This document shows positions 3,045 through 34,528 of a stretch of 39,354 bases of DNA, piece after piece (the first letter of the stretch is position 1; the number at the start of each line of letters is the position of its first letter). The stretch lies in the NCBI GenBank assembly GCA_947652735.1, contig CANTEG010000020.1:1-39354 (forward strand), read 5' to 3'. A program made the translations under genes and the position numbers. The stretch comes from an uncultured Lachnospiraceae bacterium. Its GTDB lineage: Bacteria > Bacillota > Clostridia > Lachnospirales > Lachnospiraceae. The notes beneath the pieces are model-generated. The model saw nothing but the letters and a program-made list of their open reading frames with translations. It was not told where the DNA came from and ran no database searches.

Positions 3045-4445
3045 ATGTTGCGTTTTATGATAAGCTTATGGGCGTCAAAATTATGTTTATTCTTTTTTAA
3101 ACTTACGGGAAGGGAAAAGGATGACAGACCGGGTATACTGGCTTTGCGGCTTTGCGATGACTTTATAGACAGGGTGAAAAAGCCGCGTCTTGTTGTGGCG
3201 GTTACCGGAACAAACGGAAAAACAACAATATCGAATCTTGTAAGTGATATTTTAAAGCTTGAGGGCAAAAAGGTTGCCTATAACACATGGGGAGCCAATT
3301 ATAAGGCTGGTCAGGCAAGGTGTCTTCTGGATGCGGTAAATATATTTAACAAGCCGACAAAGGATGCTGCGATTGTTGAGGTAGATGAGCTTTTATCATA
3401 CAAAACCCTGCCGTGGATTCAACCAAATTATATTATAGTGACAAATATATGCCGTGACTCTATAAGGAGAAATGCGCATCAGGAATATATTTTTAACAGC
3501 ATAAACAGAGGGTTGTCAAAGGTGCCTAAGGCAAAGCTGATACTAAATGCAGATGACCCTGTAAGCAGCTTTTTGGGAGAACAGTATGGTGGAGCAGGCG
3601 AGGAGAGCAGCAAGCTTCCAAACAAGCGTATTTACTTTTCCATAGCTGACCAGAAGCAGGAGGTTTTGCCGATAAATGTTTCAGACTTCCCGGTATGTCC
3701 GAAATGTGGAACGAAGCCTGAATTTATTTATAAGCATTATAGGGATATCGGAAGTTTCAGGTGTCCGAAGTGCGGACTGGCTTCCAAGAAATCAAAGTAT
3801 ATAGGAACTACGATAGATTATGATGCAAAGAAAATCTATGTTAGCGAGGACGGTGGTAACGGAACTGATTATCCGCTTGTGTCGGACACTATTTTCAATG
3901 CATTTAATGTTGTGGCAATTATAACGCTGTTCAGGGAATTAGGATTAAGTCAAAAGAAGATTGCCGCTGATTTGGGTAAGGTGAAAATTCCAGAGTCGAG
4001 AATGACGGTTGAGGAGTGTGGTGGAATTAAGATATCCACATTTACCGCAAAGGGGCAAAATGTATCTGCCGCATCTACCGTCTTTGAGTACCTTGCCAAG
4101 GAACCGTCAAACAAGGAACTGATTTTGCTGCTGGATGAGCATTACGGTGATGATAAATCAATAGAGACCATAACATGGCTTTATGAGAGTGATTTTGAAA
4201 ACTTAAACAAGGATAACATAAAGAAAATAATCGTTGCAGGACACCGCTATTTGGACTACAGACTGAGACTGAAGCTTGCAGGTATCCCCGAAGAAAAGGT
4301 TGTCTGTGTCAGGGATGAGAATACCATACCTGATTATGTCGTATTTGACGATATTGAATCAATATATGTTCTGCATGACGTGTACACGGTTTCAAAGGCA
4401 AAAAATATAAAAGAAAAAATAAAGGAAAAAATGCAAAAGCAGTAA
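3045..4445 (+). CDS. Divergent MurT-like Mur ligase (DUF1727 family)
   Basis: A 466-residue Mur-ligase-fold protein. The ATP-binding loop TGTNGKTT is at 54-61, EVDE at 112-115, and LNADDP near 167-172. A four-cysteine zinc ribbon (Cys218, 221, 240, 243) marks it as MurT rather than MurE or FolC. MurT with GatD normally amidates the glutamate of lipid II. In the C-terminal domain the MurT signatures I know (NPAG, NDN, then a W-I/L-W-D stretch) are replaced: the equivalent segments read TAKGQN, LLDEHYGDDKS and TWLYESDFE. The Mur core is therefore kept while the glutamate-activating site has drifted. It is followed directly by a GatD-like protein that lacks catalytic residues. The RBS is weak (GGATAGG). 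Fold assignment is firm; the lipid II amidation role is doubtful. Confidence 0.85.
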   Translation: MLRFMISLWASKLCLFFFKLTGREKDDRPGILALRLCDDFIDRVKKPRLVVAVTGTNGKTTISNLVSDILKLEGKKVAYNTWGANYKAGQARCLLDAVNIFNKPTKDAAIVEVDELLSYKTLPWIQPNYIIVTNICRDSIRRNAHQEYIFNSINRGLSKVPKAKLILNADDPVSSFLGEQYGGAGEESSKLPNKRIYFSIADQKQEVLPINVSDFPVCPKCGTKPEFIYKHYRDIGSFRCPKCGLASKKSKYIGTTIDYDAKKIYVSEDGGNGTDYPLVSDTIFNAFNVVAIITLFRELGLSQKKIAADLGKVKIPESRMTVEECGGIKISTFTAKGQNVSAASTVFEYLAKEPSNKELILLLDEHYGDDKSIETITWLYESDFENLNKDNIKKIIVAGHRYLDYRLRLKLAGIPEEKVVCVRDENTIPDYVVFDDIESIYVLHDVYTVSKAKNIKEKIKEKMQKQ

Positions 4446-4472
4446 ATGCTTCGTATTTGGATTGGAGATATC

Positions 4473-5204
4473 ATGGGTGCTGAGACAATAAAAATAGAAG
4501 TGTTGTATCCGGAGCTAAGCAATTTATATGGCGATTACTATAATGCAAAATATTTAGCAGGATGTATTGATAACGCAGAACTTATTTATACATCAAATGA
4601 TGAGGAACCTGCATTTGTGTCACAGAAGATTGACATGATTTATATGGGTTCCATGTCGGAGCGGAATCAGGAATTTGCACTTGGACATTTAATGAAGTAC
4701 AAGGATAAGCTGAAGGAGCTTATTGAGCAGGATGTTGTTTTTCTTGCTACGGGAAATGCACTTGAGCTTTTTGGAAATTATATTCAGGATGAGGATAGAA
4801 AAATTCCGTGTCTTGGGGCATTGGATTTTCATGCGGTAAGACAGATGAATGACAGAAGAAATTGCTTTTTTCTTGGGAAGTACAAGGATATGAAGATTGT
4901 AGGTCACAAAGGACAATTTTCATTTTGTCATGGAACGCTTGCCAAGCAGAAGAACATTAAGGTTCTCGGTGGATTTGGAATTAATTTAAATTCAAAATCT
5001 GAGGGAATATTTTATAAAAACTTTTACGGAACCTATATTTTAGGACCGTTTCTTTTGCTAAATCCATATTTTGTAAAGCTGATATTAAATAAGCTTGGCG
5101 TTGATGAGACACTTAAATTTGAAAAGGAAATTATAGATGCATATAACGACAGACTTGAAAGATTAGAGCAGCCGGGAACAGAGTTTTTAATGGGAGCAGA
5201 GTAA
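4473..5204 (+). CDS. GatD-like class I glutamine amidotransferase, predicted catalytically inactive
   Basis: A 243-residue homologue of GatD, the glutaminase subunit of MurT/GatD. An in-frame ATG exists at 4446, touching the murT stop, but the ATG at 4473 has GGAG at the right distance and gives the usual GatD start (VLYPELSNLYGD). The nucleophile elbow, normally CGGYQ.LG, reads GNALELFG, so Gly94 replaces the catalytic Cys. The His in the usual GTYLHGP is Leu190 (GTYILGP). The glutamine-binding GFENHGGRT region reads GHKGQFSF with no Arg. The scaffold is otherwise intact, including the C-terminal EGIFYKN and the following hydrophobic helix. It probably keeps a structural or partner role to the MurT-like protein and does not release ammonia. 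The residue comparison is from memory of the family. Confidence 0.82.
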   Translation: MGAETIKIEVLYPELSNLYGDYYNAKYLAGCIDNAELIYTSNDEEPAFVSQKIDMIYMGSMSERNQEFALGHLMKYKDKLKELIEQDVVFLATGNALELFGNYIQDEDRKIPCLGALDFHAVRQMNDRRNCFFLGKYKDMKIVGHKGQFSFCHGTLAKQKNIKVLGGFGINLNSKSEGIFYKNFYGTYILGPFLLLNPYFVKLILNKLGVDETLKFEKEIIDAYNDRLERLEQPGTEFLMGAE

Positions 5205-5205
5205 T

Positions 5206-6204
5206 ATGGGAAAGCTTAAATATTTGATTAACCGCATAGTAAAAATGGATTATAAGGGCATGTTTGCTACTGTCAAAAGAGTTCATAAGTCAAGTGGAAA
5301 AAACAGCATATACCTTTTTTTTGACATGATAAATTCGGGCTTTAAATATCAGGCTGGTTATATGGATTATGAAATGTTCGGCATGTACAATTTAAATAAA
5401 GCCGAGCGGAGTAAAATACTCACAAGAGGAAAAAACGATGCGTATGTTGCAAGACTGAATGACAGGGAAGCACGCCAGATGTTTAAGGACAAGCCGAGCT
5501 TCAATAAAAGATTTCAGGATTATATTGGTCGTGACTGGTTTTTAATTGACGGTAAAAATGAGAAGGAATTTGAGGAATTTTTAAAGGGCAGGGATAAGGT
5601 AATCATTAAGCCCGTGGGACTTTGCTGTGGGCAGGGTATTGAGATTGTTTCCCTTGCGGACAAAAATCCCAAGGAATTTTATGAGCACCTCATAAAGACA
5701 GACAGACCACTTGTGGAGCAGGTGCTTGAACAAAATGAGGAAATGTCAAAGCTTTATCCAAATGCAGTGAACACCCTTAGAATCGTTACCGTTGTAAGTG
5801 ATAAGGGAACCGTGTCAGTTGTCGGAACTTACATCCGTATTGGTGCGGGCGGAAATGATGTAGATAACTTTAATCATGGCGGGGTAAGTGCACCAGTAAA
5901 CCGAAAGACTGGCATTATAGAACATAAGGCAAGAAATAAAGAAACGAAATATTTTGACAAGCATCCTGATACGGGAACACCGATTGTCGGCTTTCAGGTT
6001 CCACACTGGCAGGAAGTTCTCGCCTTTGCAAAAAAAATGGCAAAAGAAGTGGACAATGTCAGATATGTGGGTTGGGACATCTGCATAACCAAAACGGGAC
6101 TTGCCGTTGTTGAGGCAAATGAATATCCTGGAAATGATTTGTATCAGATTCCTAAGGAAAACATAGGAACCTGCAACATCATTGATGCAGCGCTTGCAAG
6201 ATAA
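5206..6204 (+). CDS. ATP-grasp ligase of the sugar-transfer-associated type
   Basis: A 332-residue protein resembling the sugar-transfer-associated ATP-grasp family. The N-terminal third is helical and basic. The central nucleotide-binding part has VIIKPVGLCCGQGIEIV with the glycine loop, then the clamp VEQVLEQ. The C-terminal metal-binding strand reads AVVEANEYPGNDLYQ, with the Glu and Asn that hold Mg-ATP in this fold. ATP-grasp enzymes join a carboxylate to an amine through an acyl phosphate. The start overlaps the end of the GatD-like gene closely (1-base gap) and uses GGGAG inside it, so translation of the three genes is probably coupled. The substrate is unknown; the context suggests a cell-envelope or peptide product. 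Confidence 0.85.
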   Translation: MGKLKYLINRIVKMDYKGMFATVKRVHKSSGKNSIYLFFDMINSGFKYQAGYMDYEMFGMYNLNKAERSKILTRGKNDAYVARLNDREARQMFKDKPSFNKRFQDYIGRDWFLIDGKNEKEFEEFLKGRDKVIIKPVGLCCGQGIEIVSLADKNPKEFYEHLIKTDRPLVEQVLEQNEEMSKLYPNAVNTLRIVTVVSDKGTVSVVGTYIRIGAGGNDVDNFNHGGVSAPVNRKTGIIEHKARNKETKYFDKHPDTGTPIVGFQVPHWQEVLAFAKKMAKEVDNVRYVGWDICITKTGLAVVEANEYPGNDLYQIPKENIGTCNIIDAALAR

Positions 6205-6290: not shown

Positions 6291-6363
6291 GCTACTGTGG
6301 CTCAGTTGGTAGAGCAGCTGATTCGTAATCAGCAGGTCGTCGGTTCGAGTCCGATCAGTAGCT
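6291..6363 (+). tRNA. tRNA-Thr (CGT)
   Basis: The acceptor GCTACTG (6291-6297) pairs with CAGTAGC (6356-6362), discriminator T6363. The anticodon loop TTCGTAA gives CGT, which reads ACG. The T loop is TTCGAGT. CCA is not encoded. It stands alone between the ATP-grasp gene and the acyltransferase gene. Confidence 0.96.
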
Positions 6364-6407
6364 TTATTTTTTGTTTGGCGTAAAATTATTTTTTTATGGG
6401 AGTTTGT

Positions 6408-7697
6408 ATGGCAGATAAGAAGAGACCTTATAAGAATTCAAGATGGGACAAGCTTGATAATACGGCAAATTTATTTCCTGTCATTGTCAGCGAGGATGTA
6501 AGCAACGTTTACAGAGTTTCAGTGACATTGAAGGAAGAAATAGACGGTGATATTTTACAGCAGGCATTAGATAAAGTCCTGCCTTATTTTGATGTGTTCC
6601 AGACTAAGCTTAAAAAGGGTGTTTTCTGGTATTATTTTGAGACAAACAATAAGGAGGCACCGAGGGTTCACCAAGAGGACCGATACCCTTGTGCATATAT
6701 CAATCCATATATTAACAATGAGTATCAGTTTCGTGTAACACACTACAAAAAAAGGATAAACCTTGAAGTGTTCCACGTTGTTACGGATGGAAACGGTGCA
6801 CTTATGTTTTTAAAGGAACTGACTTATCAATATTTAAGGTATAAATATCCTGCATTAGAGGAAGCTGAGGGAGATAGTCTTAAGCCTGAGACATCACTTG
6901 ACAGGGAGGACAGCTACCTGAAAAATTATACCCACAGTGCAAAAAAAGGCTACAAGACAGAAAAGGCATACATTGTAAACGGGGAGCGTTTTGCATCGGG
7001 ATGCTTTGGAATCATGCATGGGTATGTAAATCTTGCACAGCTTAAGGCAGTATGCAAGTCCTATGGCGTTACAATAAATCAATATCTTATTTCGCTATTT
7101 ATATATTCCGTTTATAAGGAGTATTTAAAATCACAGCCATGTGAAAATCCTATCAGCGTGTGTGTTCCCGTAAATTTAAGACCGTATTTTGATTCCAATA
7201 CGACCAAAAATTTCTTTGCCGTGGTTTCTGCGATTTTCAAGGCAACAAAGGAAAACTATACGTTTGAGGATGTTTTGAAGGAGGTTTCAGAGGGACTGAA
7301 GGAGCAGATAAATAAGGAAAGCTTAGAGAAGCTGTTTTCTTACAATGTATCCAATGAAAAGAGTACAATGATAAGGGCGGTTCCGCTGTTTATAAAAAAC
7401 ATTGCAATGAAGACAATTTACAAAACCTCTGCAAGAGCAAATACGGCAACAATAACAAACTTAGGAATGATAGAGGTCAGCGATGCATACAGGGAATATA
7501 TAGATAAGTTTCATGTTGTGCTTTCCATGTCAAAGGGTCAGAACATAAAGGGCGGTGTTTGCACATACGGGGATACGCTTGTATTTACCTTTAGTTCTGC
7601 AGTGAGAGAGACGTATGTTCAAAAATGTTTTTTCAGGCATATGGTCAAGGAAGGCATAGAGGTTTCAATAGAGACAAATGGGGTGTATTATGAGTAA
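6408..7697 (+). CDS. Condensation-domain-like acyltransferase (CoA-dependent acyltransferase superfamily)
   Basis: A 429-residue protein of the chloramphenicol-acetyltransferase / NRPS-condensation / alcohol-acyltransferase superfamily. The catalytic motif HxxxDG is visible as HVVTDGNG, with His123 and Asp127. Later segments such as ISVCVPVNLRPYF and TNLGMIEV match the structural motifs of the second half of this fold. These enzymes move an acyl group from a thioester to an alcohol or amine. The ATG at 6408 was preferred to the one at 6396 because GGGAG sits 5 bases before it. It overlaps the next gene by 8 bases. The acceptor is unknown; an alcohol or sugar-lipid acetyltransferase is plausible given the esterase two genes on. 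Confidence 0.78.
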   Translation: MADKKRPYKNSRWDKLDNTANLFPVIVSEDVSNVYRVSVTLKEEIDGDILQQALDKVLPYFDVFQTKLKKGVFWYYFETNNKEAPRVHQEDRYPCAYINPYINNEYQFRVTHYKKRINLEVFHVVTDGNGALMFLKELTYQYLRYKYPALEEAEGDSLKPETSLDREDSYLKNYTHSAKKGYKTEKAYIVNGERFASGCFGIMHGYVNLAQLKAVCKSYGVTINQYLISLFIYSVYKEYLKSQPCENPISVCVPVNLRPYFDSNTTKNFFAVVSAIFKATKENYTFEDVLKEVSEGLKEQINKESLEKLFSYNVSNEKSTMIRAVPLFIKNIAMKTIYKTSARANTATITNLGMIEVSDAYREYIDKFHVVLSMSKGQNIKGGVCTYGDTLVFTFSSAVRETYVQKCFFRHMVKEGIEVSIETNGVYYE

Positions 7698-8367
7698 ATG
7701 TAACAGATGCAGTATCGATGTCTTTGACAATTCCCATGTATGTCCGTTGTGCAATGGAGTTTTAGATAAGGCTACGACTACCGATTATCATTCAAAATCG
7801 AATATGTATCCGGATGTTATGCCGAAGATAAAGAAGCTGAAGCTGTTTATTAAGATATTTGTTTTTGTCTCGCTTGTGATTGAGGGTATACTTATTTTGG
7901 TAAATAGCCTGACAGACAGTCATTTCAAATGGTCGCTTATCTGCGGTGTCGTGCTTACGTATGCATGCTTTACCGTGATATTTACATTTCAGCGTGACAG
8001 GGGGCACAGGACAAAGCTTTTTATGCAGGCTGTTGCTGCCATGCTGCTTGTGTACCTGATAGATGTTGTCATAGGCTATAATGGATGGTCTTTGAATTAT
8101 GCAATACCATGTATCATTATGTCTATGGATGGAATTATAATTATTCTTATGCTTGCCAACATAAGACATTGGCAGAATTATCTGCTATTGCAGATTATGA
8201 TGCTTTTTGTCAGTATCATTTTTGTTGTGCTTGCTGCATGTAACTTGGTAAAGCACCCGGTTCTGACTATTATAGCTGCTGCTATAAGCGGGCTTTGTCT
8301 GTTGGGAAGCTTTATCTTTGGTGATAAAAAAGCGGTCGGTGAACTGACCAGAAGGTTTAGGATATAA
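7690..8367 (+). CDS. Zinc-ribbon integral membrane protein (DUF6320-like)
   Basis: A 225-residue protein. An N-terminal zinc ribbon (Cys4, Cys7, then CPLC) is followed by about six hydrophobic segments between residues 50 and 215, such as LFIKIFVFVSLVIEGILILV and YLLLQIMMLFVSIIFVVLAA. The start ATG lies inside the end of the acyltransferase gene, so the two are translationally coupled. I associate this architecture with acyltransferase/esterase clusters in Firmicutes, from memory. Its molecular role is unknown; a membrane anchor for the acyltransferase is one possibility. Confidence 0.72.
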   Translation: MSKCNRCSIDVFDNSHVCPLCNGVLDKATTTDYHSKSNMYPDVMPKIKKLKLFIKIFVFVSLVIEGILILVNSLTDSHFKWSLICGVVLTYACFTVIFTFQRDRGHRTKLFMQAVAAMLLVYLIDVVIGYNGWSLNYAIPCIIMSMDGIIIILMLANIRHWQNYLLLQIMMLFVSIIFVVLAACNLVKHPVLTIIAAAISGLCLLGSFIFGDKKAVGELTRRFRI

Positions 8368-8371
8368 AATT

Positions 8372-9349
8372 ATGGAAAATGAAATCAGTAAGCGTGGAAA
8401 AATAATCAGGGAAGTAGTGTATGAGTTTAACCATAACCGTAAGCTTGTTGATTATTTTGTGGAGGAGACAAGAGGGGTCAGTGAAATGGATAAGGCGTTT
8501 AACTATCCCTCCTATATAAAAACAAGACGGATATCTCTTGATAACTTTGAAATGGAACTTATATCAAGGGAAGTGGCAGAAGCCAAACAGGAAAGCGAAG
8601 AACAGTCAGCAAAAACAGTTATTTTACAGCTTCATGGCGGCGGTTATGTCAATGCATTTAAAAATAACTATAGAACGATGGCGGGACTTTATAGTGAAGC
8701 AGGTGACGGTGCAGATGTTTTATCTATCGATTACAGAGTGGCACCTGACAATCCGTATCCTGCTGCATTTGAAGATTCCGTTGCTGCATATGAATGGCTG
8801 CTTGAAAACGGATATAGTGAGAATGAAATTATTCTTGCAGGAGACTCAGCGGGAGGCGGTCTTGCAATGTCACTGTGCCATTTCCTAAGGGATGAGGGAA
8901 GACCGCTTCCAGCAGGTATTGTGGCAATGTCACCGTGGACGGACCTTTTGGCGACAGGTGCATCCTATAAGGAAAACTATGATATTGACCCTGTATTCGG
9001 GCAAAATGAAAGCAGTCTGATATATAACAATCCCTATGTTGGGGAACATGACCCGAAAAACCCATATATTTCACCTTTGTATGGTGATTTTACGGACTTT
9101 CCGCCTATGTTGATACAGGTGGGAACATATGAAATGCTGTTAAGTGATTCTGAGGAGGTTGCCCAAAAAGCAAAGCAGGCGGGGGTAAAGGTAAGGCTTT
9201 CAGTGTACGAGGGAATGTTTCATGTATTCCAGATGGCAGCAAAGCTCATGCCGGAGTCAAAGCAGGCGTGGACAGAGGTTCATGGATTTATCAAAGCCAT
9301 AATGCAACAACAAAATGGGGAGGATTTCAGGAAAACAGGTTGTGATTGA
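8372..9349 (+). CDS. Alpha/beta hydrolase, HSL-type esterase (acetyl esterase-like)
   Basis: A 325-residue cytoplasmic esterase of the hormone-sensitive-lipase family. The oxyanion-hole motif HGGG is at 88-91. The nucleophile elbow GDSAGG carries Ser159, and the other triad members fit Asp259 (in LLSDSEE) and His284 (in GMFHVFQ). Family members cleave short acyl esters, such as acetyl groups. It starts 4 bases after the zinc-ribbon membrane protein, so acyltransferase, membrane protein and esterase form one operon that could add and remove the same acyl group. The substrate is unknown. Confidence 0.88.
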   Translation: MENEISKRGKIIREVVYEFNHNRKLVDYFVEETRGVSEMDKAFNYPSYIKTRRISLDNFEMELISREVAEAKQESEEQSAKTVILQLHGGGYVNAFKNNYRTMAGLYSEAGDGADVLSIDYRVAPDNPYPAAFEDSVAAYEWLLENGYSENEIILAGDSAGGGLAMSLCHFLRDEGRPLPAGIVAMSPWTDLLATGASYKENYDIDPVFGQNESSLIYNNPYVGEHDPKNPYISPLYGDFTDFPPMLIQVGTYEMLLSDSEEVAQKAKQAGVKVRLSVYEGMFHVFQMAAKLMPESKQAWTEVHGFIKAIMQQQNGEDFRKTGCD

Positions 9350-29146: not shown

Positions 29147-30307
29147 ATGCACAAGGTTATAAAAACAGCCGTGACATTTGCACTTGTTGCTGCAATTGGG
29201 CTGTCAAATGTTACATATGTTAAGGCAACCAGTATATCTGATTTGCAGGAAGAAAAGAAAGAAAATGAGAGTAAAAAAGAGGAGGCTGAGGGAATTTTAA
29301 GCCAGCTTGAGCAGGAGCAGCTTGGTATCAAGGAAGCCATTAAAGAGCTGGATGACAAGGTTTCTGAATATAACACGCAGATTGTAGAACTTGAGGCTCA
29401 AAGGGTTGAGCTTGAGAGTGAGATTGAGACTACGCAGAAAGAGCTTGAGGATGCGCAGGAAGATGAAAAAAAGCAGTACGAGGCAATGAAGCTTAGAATC
29501 CAGTATGCATATGAAAATGGAAACGTTGATTATATGGATACCTTGTTTTCATCCTCAGATGTTGCTGACATGGTAAATAAATCTGAATATGTTGACCAGA
29601 TTTATAAGTATGATGCCAAAATGCTTGCAGACCTTATTTCCATAAGGAAGCTTATCGCAGATGCAGAGGCAAAGCTGGAAAGTGACCTTGATGCTGTCAG
29701 GGAAATAGAGGCAGAGGTAAGCGAAAGTAAGGAAGCACTTGAGATTGTCATAGACGGTAAGGAAAAACAGGTTGCAAACTATGGAGCATCCATTGACCAG
29801 TATGAGGCTATGGTAGCGGAATATCAACAAGCCATTGAGGAAGTAGATGCTGCCATTGCAGAGGCAGAAAGGAAAGCAGCAGAGGAAGCCGCAGCAGGAA
29901 ACGGCAACACAATTTATTATACAGGCGGAGCACTTGGATGGCCTGTAAACGGTTATTACGGTATTTCCTCCTATTTTGGACCAAGAGATTTACTTGGAAT
30001 GTCGTTCCATCATGGCATGGACATTCCGTGCCCGACAGGAACACCAATTATTGCCTGTGAATCAGGTACTGTTATAACGGCAACATGGAATTATTCTCTT
30101 GGAAATTATGTTGTGATTGACCACGGCGGCGGAATGACTACAGTGTACGGACATAACAGTGCATTTGCAGTATCAGCAGGAACAGTTGTCTCCAAGGGGC
30201 AGGTTATCGCATATGCAGGCAGTACGGGGGTGTCAGAAGGACCTCACTGTCATATAGCTGTCAGAATAAACGGGAATTATGTTGATCCACTGCCGTATTT
30301 GCAGTAG
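29147..30307 (+). CDS. PcsB-like secreted peptidoglycan hydrolase, copy 1 (coiled coil plus M23)
   Basis: A 386-residue secreted protein. A signal peptide ends near Ala27 (VTYVKA). A long coiled coil rich in Glu, Lys and Gln follows to about residue 245, then a short Ala/Glu linker and an M23 (LytM) endopeptidase domain. Zinc ligands are visible: His288 and Asp292 in HHGMD, and His369 in HCH (367-369), with a further His in VYGHN. The enzyme should cut peptide cross-links in the wall. EnvC/PcsB-type proteins of this layout are switched on by FtsEX. The first 225 residues are almost identical to the copy at 33356, whereas the catalytic parts differ. It has its own promoter and terminator, and an RBS of AGGAGG. 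Confidence 0.93.
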   Translation: MHKVIKTAVTFALVAAIGLSNVTYVKATSISDLQEEKKENESKKEEAEGILSQLEQEQLGIKEAIKELDDKVSEYNTQIVELEAQRVELESEIETTQKELEDAQEDEKKQYEAMKLRIQYAYENGNVDYMDTLFSSSDVADMVNKSEYVDQIYKYDAKMLADLISIRKLIADAEAKLESDLDAVREIEAEVSESKEALEIVIDGKEKQVANYGASIDQYEAMVAEYQQAIEEVDAAIAEAERKAAEEAAAGNGNTIYYTGGALGWPVNGYYGISSYFGPRDLLGMSFHHGMDIPCPTGTPIIACESGTVITATWNYSLGNYVVIDHGGGMTTVYGHNSAFAVSAGTVVSKGQVIAYAGSTGVSEGPHCHIAVRINGNYVDPLPYLQ

Positions 30308-31755: not shown

Positions 31756-32445
31756 ATGATATCATTAGAAAATGTTAAGATGAGATATCCGGGAGGGAAA
31801 ACATACGCACTCAATGACATCAATTTTAAAATAGAAGATGGAGAGTTTGTGTTTATTGTGGGCTCCAGTGGTTCGGGAAAAACAACCCTTATGAGACTTT
31901 TGCTGAAGGAGCTTGAACCTACATCAGGGAACATAACGGTGGCGGATATTAACTTTAACAGGCTTAAGAGGAGAAATATTCCTAAATTCAGAAGAAGAAT
32001 CGGGGTTGTCTTCCAGAATTTCCGTCTGCTTAAGGACAGAACAGTTTATGAGAATGTGGCATTTGCACAAAGAGTTATCGAGGTTCCCACAAGGTACATA
32101 CGAAGACAGGTTCCGGCAATGCTTACCTTGGTAGGACTTGCAGATAAGTATAAATCATATCCGAAACAGCTTTCCGGTGGTGAGCAGCAGAGAGTTGCAT
32201 TGGCAAGGGCACTTGTGAATAAGCCGGAGATTTTGCTTGCCGATGAGCCGACAGGTAACCTTGACCCGAAAAATTCATGGGAAATTATGAAGCTGTTGGA
32301 GGACGTAAATAAAAAGGGTACCACGGTTGTGGTTGTAACCCATAACAAAGAGATTGTCAATATGATGAAGAAAAGGGTTATTACTCTCAAAAAGGGAGAA
32401 ATAATAAGTGATGAACAAAAGGGTGGATATATAGATGAGGATTAG
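31756..32445 (+). CDS. ftsE: Cell division ATP-binding protein FtsE
   Basis: A 229-residue ATPase. Walker A GSSGSGKTT is at 36-44, the signature is LSGGEQQRVALARAL and Walker B ILLADEPTGNLDP. The N-terminus (MISLENVKMRYPGG) matches FtsE. With FtsX it forms a type VII ABC complex that transmits ATP hydrolysis to an external hydrolase at the division septum. The next gene, ftsX, starts 11 bases before its stop. RBS TAGGAG. Confidence 0.96.
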   Translation: MISLENVKMRYPGGKTYALNDINFKIEDGEFVFIVGSSGSGKTTLMRLLLKELEPTSGNITVADINFNRLKRRNIPKFRRRIGVVFQNFRLLKDRTVYENVAFAQRVIEVPTRYIRRQVPAMLTLVGLADKYKSYPKQLSGGEQQRVALARALVNKPEILLADEPTGNLDPKNSWEIMKLLEDVNKKGTTVVVVTHNKEIVNMMKKRVITLKKGEIISDEQKGGYIDED

Positions 32446-33343
32446 TTCAGTATTATACAGCATCAGGCAGGGCTTTAAAAATATAAGAAGAAATCTTTTG
32501 TTCTCACTGGCATCGGTAGGAACAATTGTGTCGTGTCTGTTCCTGTTTGGAATTTTTTATTGTGTAATCGTTAATTTCAGGTCTGCAATGACGGATTTGC
32601 AGAATACAGTTACTATATCAGTATTTTTTGATGAAGGTATTTCGGATGAAAATATTACTTTGATAGGACAGCAGATTAGGCTTCGTGATGAGATAAATAC
32701 AATGGATTTTGTATCGGCTGATGAGGCGTGGGAGAAGTTTGCAAAGGAAAATTACGAGAATTATGAGGCGGCAATGGAGGCTTTTGCAGGTGACAATCCC
32801 CTTAAGAACAGTGCATCCTACAAGATAACGCTTAAAAATCTTGATAAACAGGCTGAGTTTGTTAATTACCTTAAGGAGTTGAACGGTGTAAGAAGTGTGT
32901 TAAGTTCTGAGGTAACGGCAGATGGTATCGCAGCGCTTAACAGCGTGGTAACATATGCATCAATTGGAATTATTGTGATTCTGCTTTTGGTTTCCGTATT
33001 CCTTATCAGTAATACAATCACAATTGGTATCACGGTCAGAAAGGAAGAAATTGCCATTATGAAGCTGATTGGTGCAACGAACTTCTTTGTAAGAGCACCA
33101 TTCATTGTGGAAGGAATTACCATTGGACTTGTGGGGTCACTTTTGCCTATAATATTAGTATACTTTATGTATGATAATGTTGTTGCATATGTTATAGGCA
33201 GATTTGCAGTAGTAAAGAATTTATTTGCGTTCGTACCTATAAGTGAACTTTTCGCGGTGCTTATTCCGGTTTCCATTATTATAGGTATTGGACTTGGTCT
33301 TGTTGCCAGCGTTCTTACAACGAAAAAGCATCTTAAGGTTTAA
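32435..33343 (+). CDS. ftsX: Cell division protein FtsX
   Basis: A 302-residue membrane protein. One membrane segment is at about 20-45 (ASVGTIVSCLFLFGIFYCVIV) after a basic cytoplasmic head. An extracellular loop of about 120 residues (ECL1) follows, then three membrane segments in the C-terminal half. NTITIGITVRKEEIAIMKLIGAT is the conserved FtsX stretch (residues near 192-214). ECL1 binds the coiled coil of the partner hydrolase, which here is encoded 12 bases downstream. Overlaps ftsE, so translation is coupled. Confidence 0.95.
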   Translation: MRISSVLYSIRQGFKNIRRNLLFSLASVGTIVSCLFLFGIFYCVIVNFRSAMTDLQNTVTISVFFDEGISDENITLIGQQIRLRDEINTMDFVSADEAWEKFAKENYENYEAAMEAFAGDNPLKNSASYKITLKNLDKQAEFVNYLKELNGVRSVLSSEVTADGIAALNSVVTYASIGIIVILLLVSVFLISNTITIGITVRKEEIAIMKLIGATNFFVRAPFIVEGITIGLVGSLLPIILVYFMYDNVVAYVIGRFAVVKNLFAFVPISELFAVLIPVSIIIGIGLGLVASVLTTKKHLKV

Positions 33344-33355
33344 GGAGGTATTCAT

Positions 33356-34528
33356 ATGCGCAAGGTTATAAAAACAGTTGTGACATTTGCACTTGTTGCT
33401 GCAATTGGGCTGTCAAATGTTACATATGTTAAGGCAACCAGTATATCTGATTTGCAGGAAGAAAAGAAAGAAAATGAGAGTAAAAAAGAGGAGGCTGAGG
33501 GAATTTTAAGCCAGCTTGAGCAGGAGCAGCTTGGTATCAAGGAAGCCATTAAAGAGCTGGATGACAAGGTTTCTGAATATAACACGCAGATTGTAGAACT
33601 TGAGGCTCAAAGGGTTGAGCTTGAGAGTGAGATTGAGACTACGCAGAAAGAGCTTGAGGATGCGCAGGAAGATGAAAAAAAGCAGTACGAGGCAATGAAG
33701 CTTAGAATCCAGTATGCATATGAAAATGGAAACGTTGATTATATGGATACCTTGTTTTCATCCTCAGATGTTGCTGACATGGTAAATAAATCTGAATATG
33801 TTGACCAGATTTATAAGTATGATGCCAAAATGCTTGCAGACCTTATTTCCATAAGGAAGCTTATCGCAGATGCAGAGGCAAAGCTGGAAAGTGACCTTGA
33901 TGCTGTCAGGGAAATAGAGGCAGAGGTAAGCGAAAGTAAGGAAGCACTTGAGATTGTCATAGACGGTAAGGAAAAGCAGGTTGCAAACTATGGAGCATCC
34001 ATTGACCAGTATGAGGCTATGGTAGCTGAATACCAGAAGGCCATCGAGGAAACTGATGCAGCCATAGCGGAGGCAGAAAGAAAAGCGGCAGAGGCAGCCG
34101 CAGCCGCTGCGGCAGCAGGAAACGGTAATACGGTTTATTATACGGGTGGAGCAATCGGATGGCCTGTAAATGGCTATTATTACATTTCCTCCTATTTTGG
34201 TCCAAGAGATTTGCTTGGAATGTCATTCCATCATGGTGTTGATATTCCTTGTCCGACAGGAACCCCAATTGTTGCAAGTGAGTCGGGAACGGTCATTACG
34301 GCAGGATGGAGTTACTCTCTCGGAAATTATGTAGTTATAGATCACGGCGGCGGAATGACTACAGTATATGGACATAACAGCTCATTTGCGGTATCAGCAG
34401 GAACGGTAGTTTCAAAGGGGCAGGTTATAGCGTATGCGGGAAGCACGGGACAGTCAACAGGTCCGCACTGTCATATAGCTGTCAGAATAAACGGTAATTA
34501 TGTGGATCCATTACCGTACTTACAATAA
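33356..34528 (+). CDS. PcsB-like secreted peptidoglycan hydrolase, copy 2 (FtsEX partner)
   Basis: A 390-residue protein with the same layout as copy 1: signal peptide, coiled coil to about residue 245, an Ala-rich linker (four residues longer) and an M23 domain with zinc ligands His292, Asp296 and His373. Its position 12 bases after ftsX makes it the FtsEX-activated hydrolase of this bacterium, as PcsB is in streptococci. Bases 33380-34026 match copy 1 at 646 of 647 positions. After 34026 the sequences drift apart at once. RBS AAGGAGG. Confidence 0.94.
   Translation: MRKVIKTVVTFALVAAIGLSNVTYVKATSISDLQEEKKENESKKEEAEGILSQLEQEQLGIKEAIKELDDKVSEYNTQIVELEAQRVELESEIETTQKELEDAQEDEKKQYEAMKLRIQYAYENGNVDYMDTLFSSSDVADMVNKSEYVDQIYKYDAKMLADLISIRKLIADAEAKLESDLDAVREIEAEVSESKEALEIVIDGKEKQVANYGASIDQYEAMVAEYQKAIEETDAAIAEAERKAAEAAAAAAAAGNGNTVYYTGGAIGWPVNGYYYISSYFGPRDLLGMSFHHGVDIPCPTGTPIVASESGTVITAGWSYSLGNYVVIDHGGGMTTVYGHNSSFAVSAGTVVSKGQVIAYAGSTGQSTGPHCHIAVRINGNYVDPLPYLQ

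Follow-up and report, generated by a model that had tools for sequence, protein, structure and literature searches.

The window, a stretch of 39,354 nucleotides of contig CANTEG010000020.1 from an uncultured Lachnospiraceae bacterium, encodes a MurT/GatD pair from which, by alignment, all three known residues of the glutaminase triad (GatD Cys94 and His189 and MurT Asp349, S. aureus numbering) are gone. Cys94 and His189 are missing throughout a clade of such pairs drawn from about a dozen families of the class, and comparison among relatives indicates that the glutaminase loss is selected and that the MurT/GatD pair is maintained. We tentatively propose, giving it a little less than an even chance, that MurT activates a carboxylate, probably that of D-Glu in a peptidoglycan precursor, and that a diamino acid replaces the ammonia derived from glutamine.

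The window pair and its altered active site

The window opens with tRNA genes and two leftward genes, after which a rightward gene set begins (open reading frames, Pfam). The features that concern us here are the following.

3045..4445, + strand: MurT homologue, 466 aa, ATP-dependent ligase subunit (Pfam MurT_C 75.9 bits, Mur_ligase_M 41.2 bits)
3453..3479, + strand: MurT gate loop R137-DSIRRNA-H145, which reads RDQxDR(Y/F)GE in intact enzymes
4134..4178, + strand: MurT stretch replacing DNAAD...D349, with Thr375 for Asp349 (residue alignment)
4473..5204, + strand: GatD homologue, 243 aa, glutaminase residues absent (Pfam GATase_3 37.2 bits)
4752..4766, + strand: former GatD nucleophile elbow, G94 N95 A L E98 for C G G Y Q (alignment)
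4752-4754, + strand: GatD Gly94, on the Cys94 column (HMMER alignment)
4854..4856, + strand: GatD Arg128, kept, on the column of the S. aureus glutamine-binding Arg128 (alignment)
5040..5042, + strand: GatD Leu190, replacing the general-base His189 (HMMER alignment)
5206..6204, + strand: ATPgrasp_ST protein (PF14397), the next gene (Pfam 171.4 bits)
6291-6363, rightward set: tRNA, after the ATPgrasp_ST gene

Adjacent MurT_C and GATase_3 genes make this pair a MurT/GatD homologue in the superfamily sense. The best PDB match of the MurT homologue is S. aureus MurT (7q8e, 2.4e-40; phmmer), while the GatD homologue matched four distinct PDB sequences, deposited as GatD or cobyric acid synthase, the best being S. 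aureus GatD (5n9m, 6e-14; phmmer). The corresponding NCBIfam scores are 141.5 bits for MurT, against an equivalog cut-off of 800, and 63.6 bits for GatD, against a cut-off of 400. The GatD frame is open from 4446 (4446-5204), and we prefer the start at 4473 given in a preliminary description of this DNA, since the alignment of relatives begins there and GGAG lies just 5' of it by eye. The ATPgrasp_ST protein is presumed to be a partner of the pair.

Further along the window, genes for a Condensation-like acyltransferase, a DUF6320 protein and an Abhydrolase_3 protein form a trio at 6396-9349, which is kept 3' of the ATP-grasp gene in five of the loci compared. Two near-identical gene copies, at 29147-30307 and 33356-34528, lie on either side of an ABC ATPase gene and an FtsX gene (31756-33343); the first copy encodes an M23 peptidase that has a PcsB-like coiled coil.

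For residue alignment with HMMER the references were S. aureus GatD (5n9m and 6gs2) and the 6fqb chain, which we take to be S. pneumoniae GatD. Against all three, Gly94 falls on the Cys94 column and Leu190 on the His189 column, so that both catalytic losses claimed in the preliminary description are upheld. The glutamine-binding Arg region, said there to be gone as well, proved otherwise: Arg128 is present in the window and in all 31 members of its subclade, within a loop that is shorter in this subclade. The oxyanion residues Gly60 and Gly95 are likewise replaced in the window GatD. A further lesion, absent from that description, lies in the partner subunit, where Thr375 occupies the column of MurT Asp349. 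In S. aureus this aspartate completes a composite triad with GatD Cys94 and His189, and the D349N enzyme is severely impaired (PMC6113224). The S. aureus GatD mutant C94G loses glutamine-dependent activity (PMC3266927), and the mutants C94A, H189A and R128A show no glutaminase activity (PMC5871853). Because the matching S. aureus mutants lose glutaminase activity, the window pair would be unable to supply ammonia in the known way, as had been argued from the window alone.

A genome search found two MurT genes in the source genome. The second pair (locus L006, 7263-9361) reads TGNAMEIFG and GTYTIGP and lacks the same residues as the window pair. Throughout the genus, all 34 pairs, from 26 MurT-carrying genomes, are without Cys and His, and since the second pair and all of these share the losses, those in the window are not a matter of chance. 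As far as genome searches reach, the source genome holds no GatD with an active site; the other two GATase_3 matches, considered as a possible intact GatD elsewhere in the genome, look from their sequences like HisH and PdxT.

Extent and maintenance of the loss

MurT was found in 31 of 150 family-sample genomes, 85 of 148 class-sample genomes and 26 of 37 genus genomes. Locus fetching leaned towards low-scoring MurT matches, and part of the 85 class pairs was fetched, so the fractions of dead pairs are not estimates of frequency: in a first set 37 of 100 GatD proteins were without Cys, and in a larger set of 123 there were 58 with Cys and His, 62 without Cys and three with Cys and another residue or a gap on the His column. 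Duplicate loci of one place and the partial loci L026 and L108 were left out of the counts, L009-L014 were left out of the larger set as copies of L168-L173, the 123-row MurT tree omits L080 and L078, and the GatD tree omits these two and L074. We defined the intact group by Cys and His, which made MurT Asp349 an independent test; it is kept in 58 of 58 partners of such GatD proteins, and in S. aureus.

Of the 62 Cys-less proteins, 54 form the clade that holds the window pair. Neither Cys nor His is kept in any of its 54 rows, 46 of which lack all three triad residues, and it divides into subclades of 31 (the window's), 13 (the middle subclade) and 10 (the Orr subclade, after the racemase gene discussed below). 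In the MurT tree of 100 rows a branch with support 97 sets apart 30 of the Cys-less pairs, and in that of 123 rows a branch with support 96 sets apart 55 rows; both trees are unrooted, and we read the state of the clade as a loss because Cys is general in this enzyme class. A GatD tree built without the active-site columns, in which many branches are weak and some long, does not reject a single clade of 54 (p-AU 0.74). The remaining eight Cys-less proteins all have partners that keep Asp349 (8/8), and six keep His too; one of them (L071) sits on a long branch at the edge of the clade in the MurT tree.

Several further loci deserve separate mention. Outside the clade, Cys is lost and MurT Asp349 kept in L073, L080, L099, L100, L101, L105 and L112, and one genome (G164) holds both a Cys-less pair of this kind (L105) and an intact pair (L065). 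GatD of L054 and L106 keeps Cys and has Gln or Asp on the His column. MurT genes at L102 (7830-9197) and L085 (7903-9240) have no GatD match within the fetched stretch.

On the MurT side, the residues needed to form an acyl-phosphate are largely kept. Lys59, Asn85, Glu108, Asp110 and Glu111 are present in 54 of 54 clade members. The four zinc cysteines are each found in 53 or all 54, with X where one is missing, and 45 members retain Thr60 and 47 Asn267. The window's subclade departs from the ATP and Mg site, Asn85 and the Cys4 zinc set in one T60S, three N316S and two X, and the window MurT itself has all of these residues. Asn85 is an acceptor-carboxylate contact in Mur ligases (PMC6085368), and the S. 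aureus mutants T60A, E108A and N267Y lose activity (PMC6113224). Asn267 is Cys, and Asn316 Thr, in seven of the ten members of the Orr subclade, which makes ordinary ATP binding doubtful there.

The face towards the glutaminase is remodelled. MurT Asp349 is found in none of 31 members of the window's subclade and 8 of 13 of the middle one, and in none of the 41 rows outside the latter. Gate-loop Asp137 (S. aureus numbering) is lost in 54 of 54, and Glu141 has become His in 28/31, 13/13 and 0/10 of the three subclades, or 41 of the 44 rows outside the Orr subclade. In S. pneumoniae this loop faces GatD, and alanine at the matching Asp139 and Glu143 has minor effects on activity (PMC6085368), so the gate-loop change says little by itself. 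The DNAAD motif is thought to touch the stem peptide (PMC6113224), and with that motif altered in the window MurT the acceptor as well may have changed.

In GatD, the Cys column of the clade holds Gly in 51 rows, Ser in two and Asn in one. Arg128 is kept in all 44 rows outside the Orr subclade (31/31 and 13/13) and in none of the ten within it. The Gly95 column is Asn in 30/31 and 13/13 of the window's and middle subclades, and the Gln98 column is Glu in 29/31 and 10/13 (39 of 44 outside the Orr subclade). The letters TGN occur in 22/31, 12/13 and 1/10; the full elbow motif TGN(A/S)xE(L/I)FG, considered as a mark of the clade, was set aside, being present in 16/31, 6/13 and 0/10. MurT and a dead GatD share one open frame in L095 (7016-9169, 717 aa) and L144 (3611-5794, 727 aa), and single-frame pairs also occur in L070, which is intact, and L080.

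Five comparisons of relatives, with sequences shared among them, gave dN/dS ranges of 0.057-0.080 (GatD), 0.028-0.056 (MurT) and 0.030-0.080 (the ATP-grasp gene); a sixth, with L015, was saturated. The earlier suggestion of selected loss as opposed to recent decay is thus borne out by the 54-row clade across families, by GatD dN/dS and by the accompanying loss of MurT Asp349. The low GatD values and the largely kept acyl-phosphate residues of MurT argue for inherited remodelling, not decay.

Gene neighbourhood and candidate amine supply

The gene directly 3' of the second pair (L006) encodes an EctB-family diaminobutyrate transaminase (569.9 bits, cut-off 552.2). Among 37 genomes of the genus (thresholds E <= 1e-100 for EctB and 1e-30 for racemases resembling ornithine racemase, Orr), EctB occurs in 16 and an Orr-like racemase in eight, never together, all of the Orr-like matches scoring under the curated cut-off. 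Of the 26 genomes with MurT, 24 have one or the other, as against none of the 11 that lack MurT (Fisher p 9e-8, kinship ignored), counts that are not independent events because relatives share pairs. All three subclades are represented among the pairs of the genus, and the two genomes with a pair and neither supply gene are 84 percent (G302) and 64 percent (G330) complete.

In 19 of those 24 genomes the supply gene lies directly beside the pair. EctB comes immediately after it in 11 of 16 (L006, L144-L150, L155, L157 and L158). In L153 EctB lies one gene off and on the opposite strand; L205, L206 and L208 have it adjoining the ATP-grasp gene, and L207 has it next to neither the pair nor that gene. 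All eight Orr-like genes adjoin the pair: that of L156 shares its strand, those of L161-L167 run the other way, and in the 123-row MurT tree the Orr-like gene goes with the Orr subclade. In the window group, L015, L082, L083 and L154 the pair has a member of the ATP-grasp family next to it. Eleven genus genomes, each of which has MurT and EctB, hold a close match to the window ATP-grasp protein (E <= 1e-60); there are two weaker matches, in G319 and in G328, the latter having no MurT match.

Similar arrangements recur outside the genus. Another family has MurT-GatD-Orr (L094), and Pseudoruminococcus massiliensis has MurT-GatD-ATPgrasp-YigZ-EctB (L015). In another genus (L224) EctB is preceded by the last part of a dead GatD, which matches our GatD profile at 3.5e-30 and has no Pfam match; the contig ends there. 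In the class sample (E <= 1e-120 for EctB, 1e-40 for Orr), 12 of 18 clade genomes, that of L071 included, have neither gene and six carry EctB or Orr, and in the family sample outside the genus EctB was found in none of four clade genomes at 1e-100 (G002, G025, G096 and G129). EctB as a general mark of the clade is therefore rejected, these samples being mostly without it. Orr is present in 21 of 148 class genomes, four with a clade pair and 17 without. No EctB, Orr or ATP-grasp match was found in the fetched flanks of 58 intact-pair loci, an absence that is local, most of these flanks being about 1.5 kb.

EctB also turns up in other settings. In two genomes from different families (L204, 6156-7433; L225, 3505-4758) it lies between a gene that reads as FabD-like and a very large PKS/NRPS-type gene. 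By genome-wide search, one genome with an intact pair (G208) has EctB, in a PKS/NRPS-type cluster. In L226, from a genome without a MurT match, it has no recognised partner nearby.

Other genes recur near the pairs. An Alr-family racemase follows in L153, L157 and L158 (L153 and L158 were searched, L153 falling just under the alr cut-off), and an EctB-like gene 5' of the pair in L155, L157 and L158 was dismissed as a candidate when the one searched (L158) proved to be HemL. An AsnB-type, glutamine-hydrolysing gene (TIGR01536, 521.5 bits, cut-off 267.1) lies directly 3' of the pair in L076 (4554-6404), with a homologue beside the pair in L151, the two loci being near-copies in the MurT tree. 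A Polysacc_synt flippase-like gene is found near the pair in ten genus loci, and ABC transporter genes lie on the opposite strand beyond EctB in several L006-type loci. The MurE motif DNPR, which we take to be specific for meso-diaminopimelate, is present in every one of the 30 loci that the genus search returned, and on that understanding of the motif a classical group B wall without diaminopimelate is not favoured.

Proposed function, alternatives and known systems

The gene neighbourhood favours the view that the window pair probably does something other than supply ammonia. We suggest that MurT would still activate a carboxylate as its acyl-phosphate, the likeliest one being the alpha-carboxyl of D-Glu within a lipid-linked precursor of peptidoglycan, with GatD staying as a non-catalytic subunit. 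The attacking amine would be other than glutamine-derived ammonia: in the genus a diamino acid, 2,4-diaminobutyrate from the EctB-type transaminase, and in species with the Orr-type subclade ornithine, possibly D-ornithine. The ATP-grasp protein next to the window pair might then extend or process the added residue. Family membership points to D-Glu as the acceptor, about which the altered DNAAD stretch leaves some doubt; gene linkage points to the diamino acid in the genus, and the 12 class-sample clade genomes without supply genes leave room for ammonia or other amines. Also counting against a diamino acid are the other settings of EctB, the class genomes that have Orr and no clade pair, the scores of the Orr-like matches in the genus and the two genus genomes with a pair and neither gene. 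A fuller version of the proposal, which is possible and well short of an even chance, is that MurT and dead GatD make up an amino-acid ligase family that puts a diamino acid on the alpha-carboxyl of D-Glu (Dab in the genus, D-ornithine in the Orr subclade), GatD being the donor-binding subunit. Outside the Orr subclade, Arg128 and the Glu on the Gln98 column of GatD could hold a cationic amino acid.

The alternative that survives best, unlikely on balance, is an ammonia-dependent isoglutaminyl synthase in which D-Glu of lipid II would still be amidated, from free ammonia, and GatD would be structural. In vitro, S. aureus MurT with GatD C94G uses ammonia to amidate lipid II at pH 8.5, and neither S. 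aureus subunit is active alone, although at pH 7.5 the C94G pair is inactive with ammonia (PMC3266927). This reading needs no new substrate and accommodates the class-sample clade genomes with neither supply gene (12/18), and the eight scattered Cys losses with Asp349 kept throughout suit simple uncoupling of just this sort. It leaves unexplained, however, the remodelled gate loop with its new His in 41 of 44 rows outside the Orr subclade, and the tight linkage of EctB and Orr in the genus.

We consider it less probable again that the acceptor is something other than peptidoglycan, the joint product of MurT/GatD, EctB and the ATP-grasp protein being a diaminobutyrate peptide, either soluble or linked to lipid. 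The change in DNAAD, a motif associated with stem-peptide binding, would fit such an acceptor, as would the presence of an ATP-grasp ligase in the gene set and the recurrence of export-type genes (Polysacc_synt flippase-like, ABC transporter) near the pairs, and the Mur-fold enzymes CapB, CphA and FPGS use other acceptors (PMC11915815); against it, Asn85, the acceptor-carboxylate contact, is kept in 54 of 54. Very improbable is a separate glutaminase feeding ammonia to MurT in trans, for which the AsnB-type gene beside the pair in G236 and G330 would be an example: AsnB lies directly 3' of the pair in L076 and has a homologue in L151, but among the compared loci it occurs only in these two near-copies and, divergently, in L015. 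That the GatD homologue is a functionless, decaying gene, as its missing catalytic residues might suggest, is barely credible, being contradicted by its low dN/dS, by the sharing of the same losses across families, by the open frames and by the single-frame pairs L095 and L144.

The murT-gatD operon is reported to be widespread in Clostridia (PMC6085368), and even on the minimal reading, in which the glutaminase was lost long ago under selection and the ligase kept, a clostridial murT-gatD operon would not be proof of glutamine-dependent isoglutamine. Should the preferred diamino-acid reading hold, gut bacteria would possess a large sister family of a recognised drug-target complex, building other wall chemistry; the muropeptides that such bacteria show to host receptors would change, and a candidate gene would be named for ligases that decorate D-Glu with diamino acids, the kind of ligase required for D-Glu-branched walls. 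Among the matches listed in a search of the MurT/GatD literature no title concerned an inactive GatD, which does not establish its absence from print, and we found no report of the dead-GatD clade in the available parts of PMC6085368, PMC5871853, PMC3266927, PMC12826042, PMC5007114, PMC11382707, PMC11915815 and PMC6113224.

Compared with the MurT/GatD lipid II isoglutaminyl synthase (6gs2/7q8e; 6fqb), the window pair has the same adjacent genes, the Cys4 zinc and the GATase_3 match, and it keeps the ATP-site residues and Asn85; it differs in lacking Cys94, His189 and MurT Asp349, in its altered gate loop and DNAAD motif, and in scoring far under the NCBIfam equivalog cut-offs. Carbamoyl phosphate synthetase I likewise retains a dead class I glutaminase domain beside a working synthetase, although its synthetase fold is different and it uses ammonia. 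Amines or amino acids on D-Glu occur in the walls of Selenomonas, Veillonella, Eubacterium limosum and Microbacteriaceae. A lipid-dependent diamine ligase activity is known for polyamine-bearing peptidoglycan, and we know of no gene for the diamine ligase of Selenomonas or Veillonella. In the peptidoglycan of these two genera D-Glu bears diamines (PMC12826042), cadaverine or putrescine as opposed to an amino acid, which offers a precedent for the proposed modification.

Archaeal MurT-like proteins occur in species without a GatD homologue (PMC11915815), whereas the pairs described here retain GatD as the neighbour of MurT, two clade members having both in a single frame. The engineered S. aureus C94G mutant shows the same replacement of Cys by Gly, and its dead GatD still serves MurT with free ammonia (PMC3266927); unlike the window pair, it carries a single change and has the other triad residues intact. 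Group B peptidoglycan has a bridge on D-Glu with Dab, Orn or Lys (PMC11382707). The MurE motif leads us to expect ordinary 3-4 cross-links as well in the genus, unlike group B, and a diamino acid on the alpha-carboxyl of D-Glu would be common to both.
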